A stretch of DNA of 64,000 nt from Butyrivibrio sp. MC2013 (GTDB lineage: Bacteria; Bacillota; Clostridia; Lachnospirales; Lachnospiraceae): positions 1 to 64,000 of the forward strand of contig NZ_AUKE01000001.1 of the NCBI RefSeq assembly GCF_000424585.1. The letters run 5' to 3'. Positions 30,625 through 38,156 of the stretch are shown piece after piece. Both the position numbers and the translations under genes were made by a program. The notes below the pieces were generated by a model. It ran no database searches and was not told the origin of the DNA. It was given only the letters and a program-made list of their open reading frames with translations. The first letter of the stretch is position 1. Every line of letters starts with the position of its first letter.

Positions 30625-31053
30625 TTATTCTTTGATTGATTTCCCCTCTACTACTCGCAATATAGTACTACTGACTCCTTCAGTATGTTTCAGGTAAACA
30701 ACATCCACACCATATTTTTCAAGCTGTTTTTCTGTGGCCGTCCATCTCTCAGAACCTTTCCAGTCATCTCCAATAAAAACAGCATCAAATCCGATAGATT
30801 TATATAATTCTTCTTTATCGAGTGTATTTACAATAATTGTCTTATCTACACTTTTGATATTATCTACGATAGTACAGCGTTCCTGTTCATTTATTACCGG
30901 AGTTTTGTGCTTATAATCCTCAACCAACAGATCCGAGTTAACTCCCACCACCAGGTATTCACAGTACTCTTTTGCCTGATTAAGCAAATTCAAATGACCT
31001 ATATGAAACATATCATATACGCCTTGCGTATAACCTATTTTATATTTTTTCAT
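30625..31053 (-). CDS. tagD: Glycerol-3-phosphate cytidylyltransferase (TagD-like)
   Basis: 142 residues. GYTQGVYDMFHIGHLNLL carries HIGH at 17-20, the CTP-binding motif of the cytidylyltransferase superfamily, and GVSSTILR near 125-132 stands for the RTxGISTT block. Length matches single-domain TagD, which makes CDP-glycerol from CTP and glycerol-3-phosphate. It would feed the CDP-glycerol transferase at 25.9 kb. A TATAAT hexamer lies 18 bases upstream of the ATG (plus positions 31071-31076), which would give a very short leader. Related enzymes acting on choline phosphate or other alcohols share this fold, so the substrate is likely but not certain. Confidence 0.85.
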   Translation of the reverse strand: MKKYKIGYTQGVYDMFHIGHLNLLNQAKEYCEYLVVGVNSDLLVEDYKHKTPVINEQERCTIVDNIKSVDKTIIVNTLDKEELYKSIGFDAVFIGDDWKGSERWTATEKQLEKYGVDVVYLKHTEGVSSTILRVVEGKSIKE

Positions 31054-31135: not shown

Positions 31136-32680
31136 TCACTGTTTTCTTTCCTTTAAATACCTTCCGGCATCGATTACAAAGCTATACACCATCATCATCA
31201 TGATAATGCCGATAGGAAAGGCAGATATAATGCTGATTGACTGAATATTATTCATAGAGCTTTCTGAGAATACCAATGCTATAGGCAGTATTATCAGTAG
31301 GATGCACCAAAGCAATATCACTGCCGTATGTGGTCTCTCATCCTCTTCTATCTTCTTATAGCTATAGCAAGCTGCAGTGTAAGCTATAGAATCAAAGCTG
31401 GTAGCATAAAAGGCAATCATGCAGAGCATGATCCATATCAGGAAGACATCGCCTGCAGGCATAGTACGAACGATACTCATGATCAGTTCATACAAATCTC
31501 CGCTTGCTTCATAACGGCTTATATAGTCTGCTGCTCCAATGCTCTGAAGGCCAAGGCTATGATTACCCAACACTATAAATGAACTGATAGTGGATCCTAC
31601 GCCAAAGACATAGCCTCCCATAATGGTCTGCCTGACAGTACGTCCCCTGGATATATTACCGATGAAGAAGGGTGCTGCTATGCACCAAACCATCCAATAT
31701 GCCCAGTAATAAATTGTCCAATCCTGCGGAAAGTTATTAGTCCTGGCCGGATCCATATATGTACTAAGGCCTATGAAATTCTGGATCATCTTACCCATTG
31801 ATTCCACGCCGTTTTCTATAATGAAGCGTCCCTGACCACCTAGCAGTAAAAAAGCTATCTGTAATCCGAAGAAAAGGTATATACAAAGCTTTGCCAGAAA
31901 ACTGATACCCTTAAATCCGTGAAGTACCGCATATGTATATACCAGACAGGTAATGATCAGAATTATTATAGTTACTGCTGTCCTTGATATGGATACCCCA
32001 AATAATGTAACAATAATCTCAGCCATAAGCGGAGTAGCAACCGAAAAAGTGGTTGCAGTACCCGCCAGTAGTGCAAAGAGTGCAAAAAGATCGATCACAC
32101 GCCCCATGAAACCATGAGCATTATTCTCGCCGATAAATGGAAGACATGCTTCACTGTATCTTTGTTTATCCCTCTTCCTGCAATGGATCATAAAACCAAA
32201 TGCAGCTGCCAGTACAAGGTAAAAGGACCAGGGTATAAAGCTCCAATGAAAAAGGGGAAATACACCTGCCCATTCCATGATATTGTCTCCCATCTCTGCA
32301 ACATGTGGATTAGTTGCATACATTACCCACTCTGCAAAACTGTAAAAGAGAATATCCGCAGCCAGACCACAGGTAAACATCATGGATCCCCAGGTAAAGA
32401 AACTATACTTCGGTTTTTCTTCCGGATCTCCCAATACAATATCTCCAATTTTTGAAAAGGATAAAAATATAGAGATTGCCAAGAACCCCAGGCCAATCAG
32501 TATGTAATAGCTGCCAAGGCTATCCCCAAAAAAGAAACGTACCTTGGATATGGCCAGATTAGCCTCTTGCGGAAACACAAATAAATATACTGCCAAAGCC
32601 ATTATAATAACAAATGGCACTAATGTTATCATCCAGTCTATTCTGTTACTATCAGCTATCTTATGCTTATTGTCCCCCAT
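31136..32680 (-). CDS. BCCT-family choline/betaine transporter
   Basis: 514 residues, twelve membrane helices. AAPFFIGNISRGRTVRQ (about residues 335-351) is the BCCT signature in which the tryptophan-rich helix precedes; WSFIPWSFYLVLAAAFG is another conserved part. The family imports quaternary amines. In a locus with LicC, a LicA-like kinase and LicD, choline uptake for phosphocholine synthesis is the natural role, as LicB does in Haemophilus, though LicB belongs to a different transporter family. GGGAGGAAGTATAA precedes the ATG and is partly inside the LicC gene, which ends at 32681, one base away, so the two are translationally linked. Confidence 0.88.
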   Translation of the reverse strand: MGDNKHKIADSNRIDWMITLVPFVIIMALAVYLFVFPQEANLAISKVRFFFGDSLGSYYILIGLGFLAISIFLSFSKIGDIVLGDPEEKPKYSFFTWGSMMFTCGLAADILFYSFAEWVMYATNPHVAEMGDNIMEWAGVFPLFHWSFIPWSFYLVLAAAFGFMIHCRKRDKQRYSEACLPFIGENNAHGFMGRVIDLFALFALLAGTATTFSVATPLMAEIIVTLFGVSISRTAVTIIILIITCLVYTYAVLHGFKGISFLAKLCIYLFFGLQIAFLLLGGQGRFIIENGVESMGKMIQNFIGLSTYMDPARTNNFPQDWTIYYWAYWMVWCIAAPFFIGNISRGRTVRQTIMGGYVFGVGSTISSFIVLGNHSLGLQSIGAADYISRYEASGDLYELIMSIVRTMPAGDVFLIWIMLCMIAFYATSFDSIAYTAACYSYKKIEEDERPHTAVILLWCILLIILPIALVFSESSMNNIQSISIISAFPIGIIMMMMVYSFVIDAGRYLKERKQ

Positions 32681-33403
32681 TTATACTTCCTCCCATTTCT
32701 CGTAGCTTTTATCCAGCTCTGCCAGTTCCTGCAGACTATCAACCTCTATCATATCGCCTTTCTGCATAGGATATATCCCCAGCTGATAATCCTCAAAATG
32801 ACAAAACATAGCCAGGTCATCCCAGTATATATCTCTGTTACCGGCTTCAAATTCCATCTCCAGATGTTTCCTAAGGCGCATGCCATCTTCCATAGTCCAC
32901 CGGGATACAGAGTAGAGCTGCCAGCCATTACTTCCTCCCGTCCTGGAACAGGATCTGACTATACCGTCCTTCACTTCCATCAGCCATTCATCGGTATGAG
33001 AATCAGTCCATATAGCATTGTAGCCTGACCTGACAAACTCAGGTTTTAATATTTGGGGATTATATATTATCTGATCGCCATCTAAAATAATACAATCGCC
33101 CAGATATTCACGGGCCACATAAAGCGAGCTTATATTATTGCAGCTGTCATAATATGGATTCTCAATTAACTGTATAAAAGGTTTATCCTTTGACCAGCTC
33201 TCAAACTGTTCTTTAAGATATCCTACTACTAAATATATCTCCCTTATCCCATTGGCTTGCAGTGCATCCACCACGGTATCTATCATTGCCGTACCATTCA
33301 CTTTTACCAATGGTTTTGGAGTTTTAAGCGTCAAGGGCTGCATCCTCGAGCCCACCCCCGCGGCCATGATAATAGCCCTTTTCACAAGATGTTTCTCTTC
33401 CAC
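32681..33403 (-). CDS. licC: Phosphocholine cytidylyltransferase (LicC-like)
   Basis: 240 residues from a GTG at 33403 with GGAGG six bases upstream. AIIMAAGVGSRMQPLTLKTPK is the LicC-type nucleotide-binding loop, DGDQIIY the metal site, and NISSLYVAREYL and WDDLAMF complete the resemblance to pneumococcal LicC. It makes CDP-choline from CTP and phosphocholine. It lies 29 bases after the three-domain fusion, which has its own LicC-type domain, so two cytidylyltransferases coexist; one may act on a different substrate such as ethanolamine phosphate or be degenerate. Co-transcribed with the transporter. Confidence 0.86.
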   Translation of the reverse strand: MEEKHLVKRAIIMAAGVGSRMQPLTLKTPKPLVKVNGTAMIDTVVDALQANGIREIYLVVGYLKEQFESWSKDKPFIQLIENPYYDSCNNISSLYVAREYLGDCIILDGDQIIYNPQILKPEFVRSGYNAIWTDSHTDEWLMEVKDGIVRSCSRTGGSNGWQLYSVSRWTMEDGMRLRKHLEMEFEAGNRDIYWDDLAMFCHFEDYQLGIYPMQKGDMIEVDSLQELAELDKSYEKWEEV

Positions 33404-33432: not shown

Positions 33433-35208
33433 TTATTTGAGTCCTGGTACCCGCTCATCTGCAAGGTAACGATAATAGTCCTTGGCATACCTGTACTGCC
33501 TGAGTGAATACTCTCCAAACTCCACACCAAAACCCGACTTATATTCGCACCAGTTGGACCATAACAGTCCACAGGCTGATATGTATGCATATATCTTGAG
33601 TCTGGTCATATGATCACATCCATCTTCAAAATACATATCTATAAGCCGGTCTACTTCCTCACGATCATACAGACTATAGATAGCAAACATCGCTATATCC
33701 ACATGAGGATCCTGCATACCTGAGTATTCCCAGTCAGTTAACTGTACTTCTTCCTCAGCTTTTTCATCTGTTTTATAAAACAGAAAATTATCCGGTACCG
33801 CATCTATATGCGTCAGACAAAGCTCCTTATCCATACTGTCAATAAAACCTTTGAGCTTTAAGACATGTTCTTTGGTTTGTTTATAATCCTCATAAACAGA
33901 AGGTCGTCCCGCCCATAGATTTTCATAAAAATCTATTTGTCCAAAGATATCAAAGCGGTGATCAACCACAAGTTTCATATCATGAAATTTTTTTAACTTT
34001 TTCATGCATATCCTGACGTCAGAGAGATCCCCGGGATCACATACACGTACTCCGTCCAGGTATGCTGTGATCTTATAGCCGTTTGCAGGATTGATATATA
34101 CAGGATCATCACAGAGTCCCCTGCCGCTAATGGTTTCAAACACCCTTGCTTCATGCCTTCGATCTATGAGCATATCAGTGCCCTCACCGGGTATACGCAT
34201 AATATATTTTTTTGAGCCTACAGTAAACAGAAAAGATCTGTTAGTCATTCCTTTCTTCAAAACCGAAATATCGACTACCTGTCCGGGATCAGTATGGAAA
34301 ACATTTGCGATAAGGTCCAGAGCATCTGATTGAAGCTGGTCTGAATTCTCATCTACCTCTCTAAGCTGCTCATACGTATTGATCTCGAGCACATCCCTGC
34401 CGGCTACCAACCTGGCAGGGATCATCATCCTGTCAGACTGATAGAGCGCTATCTCCCAAAAATCATTATCATGTAGTCCGCTGCTTGCAGCATCCATAAT
34501 ATTCTCACGTATAACTTTCGCATCATTCCGGGTCAGATAGGATATCCCTATCATGCTATTACCTTTTTCTGCTAAAGCCACTCTCACAAGTTCTCTTTTC
34601 CGGTTTACCCTGACTTCACTTTCAGGATCCTCTTTATCAGATACCATATACCAGGAATATAACTCATGCTTACTAAATGGGTTATATCGACACCATATAT
34701 CAGAAGGGATGATATATGTATCAGATATGTCATCAACCGCCAGCAATAGTGAACAGAGATTATTTTTACGGCTATACTCAGGGTTAACTATAAGCTTGAC
34801 ATTATATTTGTCTATGAGATATTCAAAGCTCTCCTTCATAAAACCGACAACCACAGTAATGTCATCTATACCGCTTTCATGCAGCTGTCCTATCATTCTC
34901 TCGATCAGTCTTTCATTATTGACCTCCAGCATAGCTTTTGGTGTTGTCATATTGATAGGTACCATTCTCATACCAAATCCCGCCGCGAGAATAATAGCAT
35001 TCCTGGGTCTGCTGTTTTTGAATGTTTCCCTTGCTTTAGAAGTGAGGCTGTAGTCCTTATCCAGATATCCGTCAGATACCAATGACTTTATGCTATGATT
35101 CACTGTCCCCAGGCTATACCCTGTGGACTCTGCCAGGATTCTCTGATTAACAAAGGGATGCTCATTTAATTGTTTGATAATATCTGCTTCATGTATGTTC
35201 ATGAACAT
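33433..35208 (-). CDS. HTH - LicC-like nucleotidyltransferase - choline kinase fusion
   Basis: 591 residues in three parts. Residues 1-60: winged helix-turn-helix (ADIIKQLNEHPFVNQRILAE, GTVNHSIKSLVSDGYL). Residues 66-290: LicC-type domain (AIILAAGFGMRMVPINMTTPK, loop at about 73). Residues 310-580: APH/choline kinase fold with THIDAVPDNFLF (H467, D469, N474) and TDWEYSG (D492). One chain could phosphorylate choline and activate it with CTP. The start at 35208 is set by AAGGAG seven bases upstream; the frame is open to 35256. LicC-LicA fusions are known in other bacteria; the added DNA-binding domain suggests self-regulation. It heads the choline operon. Confidence 0.87.
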   Translation of the reverse strand: MFMNIHEADIIKQLNEHPFVNQRILAESTGYSLGTVNHSIKSLVSDGYLDKDYSLTSKARETFKNSRPRNAIILAAGFGMRMVPINMTTPKAMLEVNNERLIERMIGQLHESGIDDITVVVGFMKESFEYLIDKYNVKLIVNPEYSRKNNLCSLLLAVDDISDTYIIPSDIWCRYNPFSKHELYSWYMVSDKEDPESEVRVNRKRELVRVALAEKGNSMIGISYLTRNDAKVIRENIMDAASSGLHDNDFWEIALYQSDRMMIPARLVAGRDVLEINTYEQLREVDENSDQLQSDALDLIANVFHTDPGQVVDISVLKKGMTNRSFLFTVGSKKYIMRIPGEGTDMLIDRRHEARVFETISGRGLCDDPVYINPANGYKITAYLDGVRVCDPGDLSDVRICMKKLKKFHDMKLVVDHRFDIFGQIDFYENLWAGRPSVYEDYKQTKEHVLKLKGFIDSMDKELCLTHIDAVPDNFLFYKTDEKAEEEVQLTDWEYSGMQDPHVDIAMFAIYSLYDREEVDRLIDMYFEDGCDHMTRLKIYAYISACGLLWSNWCEYKSGFGVEFGEYSLRQYRYAKDYYRYLADERVPGLK

Positions 35209-35233
35209 ATTATAACTCCTTTTTGATGAACAT
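35195..35233 (-). promoter_or_regulatory. Repeated ATGTTCAT sites flanking the ribosome site of the fusion gene
   Basis: A perfect 14-base palindrome ATGTTCATGAACAT (35195-35208) covers the start codon of the HTH-kinase fusion, and a second ATGTTCAT half-site lies at 35226-35233, 25 bases away. The AAGGAG ribosome site is between them. It is a candidate operator for the gene's own HTH domain. This is inference; the first codons themselves contribute part of the palindrome. Confidence 0.4.
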
Positions 35234-36190: not shown

Positions 36191-37027
36191 TCAATCTTCT
36201 CCGGGAAACTTGCATTCTACAATCCCATGACGATTTACTCTGTCCTCCAAGGGAGGCAGCTGCATATAATCACCATAAGCATCCGTAAGATATCTTACAT
36301 AACCCTTGGGGCACTTAAACAGCTCTCCCTCAAATTCCAGTTCTGTAGTCTCTCTTATATCATCATAATGAAGTATCCAGCTTCCATAAGCTGAATCTGT
36401 AAATGCCAGCCTGTCCTGAGAACTACTGCCATTATATCTTTGAGCTACGCGGTCATAGAGTCTGATCAGCGAATCTCTGCTGTAAAACATTGCCATTATC
36501 TCTATTGGAATAAAAAGAGCGTGCTTGATATACCTCACAGGGCCTGTGTGTCTCATCCACTGCTTGTAACCACATTTCATAAGCATCATCTTCTTGGACA
36601 GCTCATAAGGGACCGATTGCAGTATCCGCTGATAGGCCTTAGAAGGAAATATATCATATGGAAAAATGTCTATAAAAAAGCCATTTTCGCATTCGCTATC
36701 CTTGGTAATCTCTTCTACATATACCGTATCTCTCATTCTGAGCTTGGCATAAGACTGTGCATAGTTGATATCACTCTCCCTGGTCTGCAAAAAGAATCGT
36801 TTATCAAGCAGAGCCGGAGCCTTACTGATAAAAATCTCGTAGTTCTCTCTAAGCATTCCCACGTCCGCATCATCATCCCAGGGAATGAATCCCTTATGCC
36901 TGACTGCACCCAGCAAGGTTCCGGAGTCCAGATGATAATCCAGTTCCAGAATATCGCACACTCTCTTAAATTCCTTCAATATATCCAGCATACATAGCTG
37001 AACTTTTCTCAATAATTCATCATCCAT
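36191..37027 (-). CDS. licD: LicD family phosphotransferase (second copy)
   Basis: 278 residues from ATG 37027, with AGGG eight bases upstream; an earlier in-frame start at 37069 would overlap the upstream acyltransferase. DSGTLLGAVRHKGFIPWDDDA includes the catalytic aspartates (about 51-55), and FFIDIFPYDIFP follows. This is closer in layout to choline-type LicD and is nearest to the LicC, kinase and transporter genes, so phosphocholine transfer to a sugar is the best guess. The gene at 27.1 kb differs clearly in sequence, suggesting a different acceptor or donor. Confidence 0.87.
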   Translation of the reverse strand: MDDELLRKVQLCMLDILKEFKRVCDILELDYHLDSGTLLGAVRHKGFIPWDDDADVGMLRENYEIFISKAPALLDKRFFLQTRESDINYAQSYAKLRMRDTVYVEEITKDSECENGFFIDIFPYDIFPSKAYQRILQSVPYELSKKMMLMKCGYKQWMRHTGPVRYIKHALFIPIEIMAMFYSRDSLIRLYDRVAQRYNGSSSQDRLAFTDSAYGSWILHYDDIRETTELEFEGELFKCPKGYVRYLTDAYGDYMQLPPLEDRVNRHGIVECKFPGED

Positions 37028-37043
37028 TATCAATACCCTGCTA

Positions 37044-38156
37044 TTATTTTTTTGCCTTTTTTCTTCCACCGGTCAATAGTCCGTAAATCCCCGGAGTCCA
37101 GCGCTCCAGAGCCATGCTTAGGCCTATGCAATAGCATAAGATCATGATCGCTGTTGCGAAATAACCAAGCACCATAAATAATACAGTCTCAGGAAACAGC
37201 GTAATAAGTATCTTTTCCAATATGGTAGTGGGTATCTGATGGAATATGTATATTGGAAAACTATACCTGTAAACCAGCTCCAAGAGTTTTAATAGTCCAC
37301 CCCTGAATGAGATGACCGTAGCAGAAGCCAAAGTCCAAAATACCAATCCCACCCAGATCACCAATAGCTTGATCACTTTATGGACAAACAGTCCCTTGCT
37401 GAGAAAAAATAATGGGATCAAAGACACATATACTGCAGCTACTGCAGGTTTATTCACTTTATTTATATCCCGGAAATGTATATCATACTTTACCAGATAA
37501 TACCCTGCAGCAAAGTATACGATTGAAGTAACTGTATATGAGGAGCCTTTAATAAACCAGGAGGCCACGATCAGCACAAGTAAAGCTGCAGCAGTCAATA
37601 CAGGGGCTTTATCTATAATCTTCTTAATAACCGGAGCAAAAATATTTAATACAAAGAGATTTCTTACAAACCACAGGGGGCCATATATAAGATGGACCGC
37701 GTTGCTCGTTCCAAATCCAAGATATGCGTCCAAATATTCCAAAAGTCCCCAATCAGCTACTATCTTGTCAGGATTAGAAAAAAACACCTTTAATGACGGA
37801 CTGAGCTGAACACAAGCGTAAAATACTATCCAAAATGTGTTGATGATAAAATAAGGGACTAAAAGGCTTCTTATCTTTTTGAGGATATTATCTTTCCAAT
37901 CAATTGGCTTCTTATACAAAAGAACTCCGGATATCACGAAAAATCCCGGTACAGCACAAGTCGGAAGCACGTCAGAAAGGATTTTCTTTAGTATTTCAAA
38001 CCATTTTGGTAATTCAAATACACTGTTACCTGTAGCAAGATTTATACCATTATAGTGAGTATGGATCATCACTATCATAATGGTCAAAATAGCTTTTAAT
38101 ACACTGATAATCTTTGAATCCTGATCTGATATCAGGTAGTTTTTTTCATTGCTCAT
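37044..38156 (-). CDS. Acyltransferase-3 (AT3) membrane protein
   Basis: 370 residues from ATG 38156; this overlaps the end of the upstream GT4 gene by 11 bases. K21 and H32 in LKAILTIMIVMIHTHYN give KX10H, and AVPGFFVISGVLLYKK is the second conserved block. Ten membrane helices. It resembles wall-teichoic or capsule O-acetylases. Overlap with the GT4 gene and short gap to LicD show tight co-transcription. The acyl acceptor is unknown. Confidence 0.84.
   Translation of the reverse strand: MSNEKNYLISDQDSKIISVLKAILTIMIVMIHTHYNGINLATGNSVFELPKWFEILKKILSDVLPTCAVPGFFVISGVLLYKKPIDWKDNILKKIRSLLVPYFIINTFWIVFYACVQLSPSLKVFFSNPDKIVADWGLLEYLDAYLGFGTSNAVHLIYGPLWFVRNLFVLNIFAPVIKKIIDKAPVLTAAALLVLIVASWFIKGSSYTVTSIVYFAAGYYLVKYDIHFRDINKVNKPAVAAVYVSLIPLFFLSKGLFVHKVIKLLVIWVGLVFWTLASATVISFRGGLLKLLELVYRYSFPIYIFHQIPTTILEKILITLFPETVLFMVLGYFATAIMILCYCIGLSMALERWTPGIYGLLTGGRKKAKK

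Follow-up and report, generated by a model that had tools for sequence, protein, structure and literature searches.

Can an enzyme of choline activation control the transcription of its own gene? The question is raised by a locus of Butyrivibrio sp. MC2013, contained in a stretch of 64,000 nucleotides (contig NZ_AUKE01000001.1, positions 1 to 64,000; hereafter the window). A first-pass annotation, made from the letters of this DNA, described one gene encoding a helix-turn-helix (HTH), a LicC-type nucleotidyltransferase and a choline kinase fold, with a palindrome over its start codon as a candidate autoregulatory site. We asked whether such a gene and site recur among relatives, and in what form.

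A three-domain gene and its upstream repeat

The gene and its domains are as follows:

33433..35208, minus strand: wHTH-LicC-LicA fusion gene, 591 aa (ORF, Pfam, solved relatives)
35011..35208, minus strand: winged HTH (wHTH) domain, residues 1-66 (HTH_24, model helices, invariant residues)
34348..35001, minus strand: LicC-like nucleotidyltransferase domain, residues 70-287 (Pfam, solved relatives, Foldseek)
33484..34275, minus strand: LicA-like choline kinase domain, residues 312-575 (Pfam, solved relatives, Foldseek)

The reading frame opens with an ATG at 35208 (a further in-frame ATG lies at 35202) and its stop codon ends at 33433. The composition given in the first-pass annotation was borne out by three Pfam domains above their cut-offs: HTH_24 at residues 6-49 (E 4e-8, 33.1 bits versus 21.9), so that residues 1-60 do score as an HTH, NTP_transf_3 at residues 71-161 (43.9 bits versus 27) and Choline_kinase at residues 315-510 (65.1 bits versus 29). 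MarR_2 matched the wHTH below its cut-off. When the sequences of solved structures were searched, LicC 1jyk matched residues 70-287 (E 8.5e-28) and choline kinase 4r77 residues 312-575 (E 3.7e-25), and a profile compared with 1jyk (E 4e-53, profile positions 63-287) extended the LicC relation over the full domain. The predicted model of the protein has a mean pLDDT of 88.4 and a pTM of 0.67, and Foldseek ranked LicA and LicC at the top. The closest solved structures of both enzyme domains are LicC and LicA of Streptococcus pneumoniae, which are separate proteins there; the solved chains match the enzyme domains only.

In the model, the wHTH helices span residues 5-16, 22-29 and 33-45; the wHTH modelled in isolation has a pLDDT of 86.8, and residues Q22, R23, G34 and N37 are invariant in all 30 aligned rows. 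Its fold is like that of the MarR-type wHTH of AdcR (3tgn; TMq 0.86, rmsd 1.3, E-values above 0.001) but, unlike the MarR family, it has no dimerisation helices of its own and consists of about 66 residues ahead of an enzyme domain.

The catalytic motifs of LicA-type choline kinases, HxD...N and DxE, are both present: H467, D492 and E494 are invariant in 30/30 rows, and D469 and N474 are kept in at least 90% of them. In the fused nucleotidyltransferase, the second Asp of the LicC EID motif, a metal ligand, is absent: the protein encoded in the window has EIN at this place, and a more distant branch of homologues has EFE. Since GlmU uses Asn at that same position, the fused domain may still be an active nucleotidyltransferase, and we class it as LicC-like only. 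The idea of an inactive nucleotidyltransferase was set aside, the Asp-to-Asn change being insufficient by itself for such a claim.

Around the start of the gene, the following elements were found:

35196..35232, minus strand: split operator TGTTCA-N25-TGAACA (candidate; inverted half-sites, conserved spacing)
35195..35208, no strand: 14-base palindrome covering the start codon and forming the operator's right end (read in the sequence)
35216..35220, minus strand: AGGAG ribosome site between the half-sites (read in the sequence)

The palindrome, ATGTTCATGAACAT, covers the start codon as the first-pass annotation stated; the second half-site, GTTCA (35227-35231), was said to lie across the ribosome site and lies in fact just 5' of AGGAG. 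Together the half-sites read GTTC-N27-GAAC (35197-35231). In the organism's 3.8-Mb genome, TGTTCRYGAACA occurs at two places (control 0). Uniqueness of the split pattern was rejected: GTTCAN{23,27}TGAAC is found at 12 places in this genome versus 8 for the reversed control, and TGTTCAN{24,25}TGAACA matches 146 of the 299 genomes of the window's family, a 12-base pattern arising by chance too. The sole other copy of TGTTCATGAACA in the genome (L227 1537-1548, C3:47136) overlaps the start codon of another ORF, whose product looks by eye like a mannose-1-phosphate guanylyltransferase; this may be chance.

Two genes lie downstream on the same strand:

32681..33403, minus strand: stand-alone LicC-like gene, LicC2 (Pfam), probably in one operon with the fusion gene
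31136..32680, minus strand: BCCT transporter gene (PF02028, E 7.8e-116), probable regulon member through a shared operon

Of 80 named loci, at least 73 have a LicC2 homologue next to the fusion gene and at least 64 have a BCCT homologue, both counts being lower bounds as several of these loci stop soon after the gene. The E-x-N of the fused domain is E-x-D in LicC2, and the pathway thus seems to have two cytidylyltransferases. LicD homologues are found in just 12 of the 80 loci, and the acceptor side therefore varies. In the window, a glycosyltransferase gene precedes the fusion gene by 63 bp, and a CTP_transf_like protein (30625-31053) and a LicD protein (36191-37069) border the cassette.

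Conservation of the operator among homologues

Matches to the fusion protein at E ≤ 1e-10 were found in 116 of the 299 family genomes, many of them to a single domain. The whole fusion was listed in 48 genomes, of which 22 (own genome included) form a close branch with 44-67% identity and 26 a distant branch with 38-45%; remoter fusions occur beyond these two branches. A scan of named genomes gave at least 549 relatives. The best 80 of these include many Lachnospiraceae, some Oscillospiraceae and Erysipelotrichaceae, Streptococcus porci, Faecalibacterium prausnitzii, lactobacilli and Anaerococcus hydrogenalis, as well as bins labelled Treponema or Coriobacteriales, which may be misassigned.

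Paired GTTC and GAAC recur in the DNA upstream of the homologues. A span of 34 or 35 bases was observed for 62 of 90 close homologues (L064 and L139 fall outside this group through the score threshold) and for 26 of 36 more distant ones (26 genes of the distant branch and 10 remoter), while 100 dinucleotide shuffles gave on average at most 0.20 sequences at these spans and a maximum of 3 at any span. The palindrome is thus conserved in orthologues, as one part of a split operator. Allowing one mismatch in 12, TGTTCA/TGAACA lies upstream of 95/132 relatives with a wHTH versus 1/130 without (shuffle expectation 0.1 and 0.0, respectively), a contrast that is partly one between different genes since the wHTH-less set holds LicC2 neighbours and remote kinases; at two mismatches the counts are 108 and 4. 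Three of four fusion homologues without a wHTH (L101, L113, L129) have no repeat. These comparisons favour the view of the site as an autoregulatory one, and autoregulation of the fusion gene is a well-supported prediction of comparative genomics. Separately, L123 (3777 onwards) is a fusion homologue that has lost its wHTH and has retained an upstream repeat of span 33.

The operator's place relative to the gene differs between branches. In 53 of 61 close-branch operators the right half-site and the start codon coincide, which raises the suspicion that the motif simply reflects a conserved Met-Asn start (ATGAAC) and has no function. We give this explanation almost no credence, and rejected it on the non-coding copies of the operator: the left half is non-coding and stands at a fixed distance, BCCT promoters carry the motif, the operator is mostly non-coding in the distant branch (about 40% identity; consensus TATAATGTTCATA...TTTTTGAACA), and in the distant set the right half-site ends ahead of the HTH in 23 of 24 cases. 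A third half-site, inside the coding sequence some 24 bp from its start (GTTC to GAAC span 58), was seen in 19/90 close homologues; it covers Leu/Met-Asn codons, and coding constraint may explain it.

The spacers of 55 operators average just 38% identity, and the half-sites therefore stand out from their surroundings. Their sequence is conserved beyond mere pairing, which speaks against the idea that the inverted halves work at the RNA level, by forming a 5' stem-loop that masks the ribosome site. Complementary half-sites flanking that site in the close branch would suit such a hairpin, but five operator stretches folded no better than their shuffles (z 0.40, 0.20, -1.27, -0.59 and -0.06; L148 was left out, its stretch not covering the operator), and a left half abutting a -10 box would be largely upstream of the transcript. 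We rejected the hairpin on the folding result and regard it as very improbable.

A TATAAT-like hexamer (at most one mismatch) touches the left half-site in 17/23 distant operators and in 14/20 BCCT operators; in the close branch such a hexamer lies at most 24 bases upstream, at varying distance, in 43/63 operators versus 26 in shuffles. A protein on an operator that overlaps the promoter would block RNA polymerase, and repression is therefore the direction of control that we infer.

The BCCT transporter and the reach of the operator

The likely regulon, as predicted from these genomes, goes beyond what the first-pass annotation proposed and extends to the BCCT transporter, which is of the choline/betaine type. 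BCCT genes are present in 43 of the 48 fusion genomes versus 20 of 251 others. In 18 of the 22 close-branch genomes the gene follows the fusion gene on the same strand at a distance of 29-3948 bases; in the distant branch it is usually a separate gene with its own copy of the operator. One operon in the former and two operator-bearing units in the latter are what a shared regulator predicts. The operator was found at 20 of 25 BCCT promoters in fusion genomes versus 3 of 17 in comparison genomes (Fisher p 1e-4, kinship ignored). The 25 include the operator-less promoters of G244 (a 30% paralogue) and G269 (directly behind the kinase frame), and those of G178, G295 and G250 are also without operator; L270 (BCCT adjoins the fusion gene), L272 (wrong gene end) and L291 (59 bases) were excluded. 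The 17 come from genomes in which neither listed branch of the fusion is represented; five of these genomes (G133, G179, G195, G201, G237) have a remoter, operator-less wHTH fusion. A search for exact operators in 25 genomes (among them G007, which has no fusion match) placed sites ahead of the BCCT gene in nine, at fusion genes, and at scattered others.

Among these others, two adjacent exact operators precede an ABC permease pair (L221 1453-1565 in G046; L222 1486-1598 in G253). For the L222 permeases the best matches are UgpA (141 bits) and UgpE (134 bits), both short of the cut-offs; the pair is a possible route of glycerophosphocholine uptake. In G046, a gene resembling class I methyltransferases also has an exact operator at its start (L220 1512-1547).

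Could a separate repressor bind a real operator, the fused wHTH being structural or binding elsewhere? Three genomes invite this thought: in G114, G063 and G048 (L275, L276 and L277, respectively) the BCCT operator is present and no fusion gene was found. The remoter fusions, which have a wHTH and no operator, point the same way. On the other hand, the repeat tracks the wHTH in the comparison given above, the fusion gene is the factor common to operator-bearing units, and two of the three genomes are 89% (G063) and 93% (G048) complete. A search of five genomes for another regulator returned nine weak wHTH loci, none with a repeat and some in frames that were not the actual match; these three genomes yielded no candidate with the repeat. 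We consider a separate repressor improbable, and the fused wHTH remains our choice as the protein on the operator.

The operator is not a universal rule for wHTH fusions. Six remoter fusions (G133, G179, G195, G201, G237 and the second copy in G250; loci L294, L295, L296, L306, L307 and L310) contradict it, with no repeat within 250 bases upstream and a wHTH that scores 39-52 bits. BCCT lies directly behind the fusion in G179, G195 and G237 and at the second copy in G250, and the link between fusion and BCCT is therefore wider than the TGTTCA/TGAACA operator. If these remoter wHTHs bind DNA, they would use other sites. The operator was also absent, even at three mismatches, upstream of 29-31% homologues (L157, L159, L163, L168, L169) and of three of five wHTH-nucleotidyltransferases without a kinase (L176-L178).

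A candidate trigger enzyme for choline

NadR consists of a DNA-binding domain, an NMN adenylyltransferase and a ribosylnicotinamide kinase. It resembles the fusion in that regulator, nucleotidyltransferase and kinase are held in a single chain; it differs in serving the NAD pathway, in having a known effector and in the folds of its domains. Among the families listed (25 of 44), the NadR family had no match to the fusion gene, and NadR is compared here as an analogue only. A likeness in the enzyme part is offered by LicCA of Treponema denticola, a cytidylyltransferase-choline kinase fusion. NadR represses nadB, nadA-pnuC and pncB, genes of synthesis and uptake, in a NAD-dependent manner, according to the part of PMC7221760 that treats it. 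The trigger-enzyme passage of PMC8249747 names BirA, NadR, PepA, PutA and PyrH for E. coli, and no choline member. BirA and PutA, like the fusion in its proposed role, are enzymes controlling genes of their own pathway; they are other enzymes with other operators.

No description of a wHTH-LicC-LicA protein was found in the open-licence literature, which is not proof of novelty, nor any open-licence paper with "winged helix-turn-helix" together with "choline kinase". The text of PMC10434233 (phosphorylcholine genes in 26 species) does not contain the words fusion, helix, domain, BCCT or Lachnospira, and that of PMC7368946 (a review of bacterial choline kinases) lacks licCA, bifunctional and helix-turn.

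Domain order, conservation and spacing of the operator, promoter overlap and co-occurrence were read directly from the genomes. As in trigger enzymes, enzyme and DNA-binding domains share one chain, and a conserved operator stands at genes of the same pathway, the six remoter fusions excepted. Judged on sequence, wHTH-LicC-LicA appears to be a real, conserved and coherent trigger-enzyme variant for choline, and it probably represses its own operon and choline uptake. The scheme that follows adds operator binding, control direction, dimer, effector, enzyme activities and co-transcription, all of which we infer. By homology, the kinase domain would make phosphocholine and the nucleotidyltransferase domain CDP-choline. 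The N-terminal wHTH would bind TGTTCA-N24/25-TGAACA and repress; in the distant branch this operator overlaps the -10/start region, in the close branch the DNA leading up to the start codon. BCCT would be co-controlled, through a shared operon of fusion gene, LicC2 and BCCT in the close branch and through its own operator copy in the distant one. The half-site centres are about 29-30 bp apart, which suggests that two wHTH heads are held apart on a large dimeric enzyme.

Which signal would act? The first-pass annotation named pathway flux or CDP-choline, which we retain as candidates: the effector would be a pathway metabolite, and we favour feedback by the product over release by the substrate since NAD acts in this way on NadR. 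The product-bound form would most likely repress, and a full CDP-choline pool would thereby shut off both uptake and activation. The same regulator may instead answer to choline as PutA does to proline, the substrate releasing the repressor and CDP-choline adding no strength. In the passage of PMC8249747 on PutA, the protein without substrate keeps both its own gene and that of a transporter repressed, and the regulon here likewise includes a transporter; NadR, the nearest domain plan, is on the contrary a product-dependent repressor in the cited part of PMC7221760. Release by choline is a real possibility, though not the outcome we expect.

Tentatively, and with more doubt than for repression by a trigger enzyme as such, we go further. 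These proteins may form an undescribed, widespread family of choline trigger enzymes with a plan convergent with NadR, in which half-sites nearly three helical turns apart are bridged by the enzyme core. The fused nucleotidyltransferase of the close branch might be a CDP-choline sensor, with LicC2 doing the chemistry, and some distant-branch regulons might reach a Ugp-like importer, perhaps of glycerophosphocholine.

Bacterial use of choline is of consequence to hosts, and bacterial surfaces carry phosphocholine as a decoration. If the trigger-enzyme reading is true, one protein and one recognisable DNA site would, in many gut-type Firmicutes, couple the capture and activation of choline directly to the control of genes, and the operator would let choline regulons be predicted directly. 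The NadR plan would then have been built a second time, independently, making trigger-enzyme logic comparable across unrelated folds.
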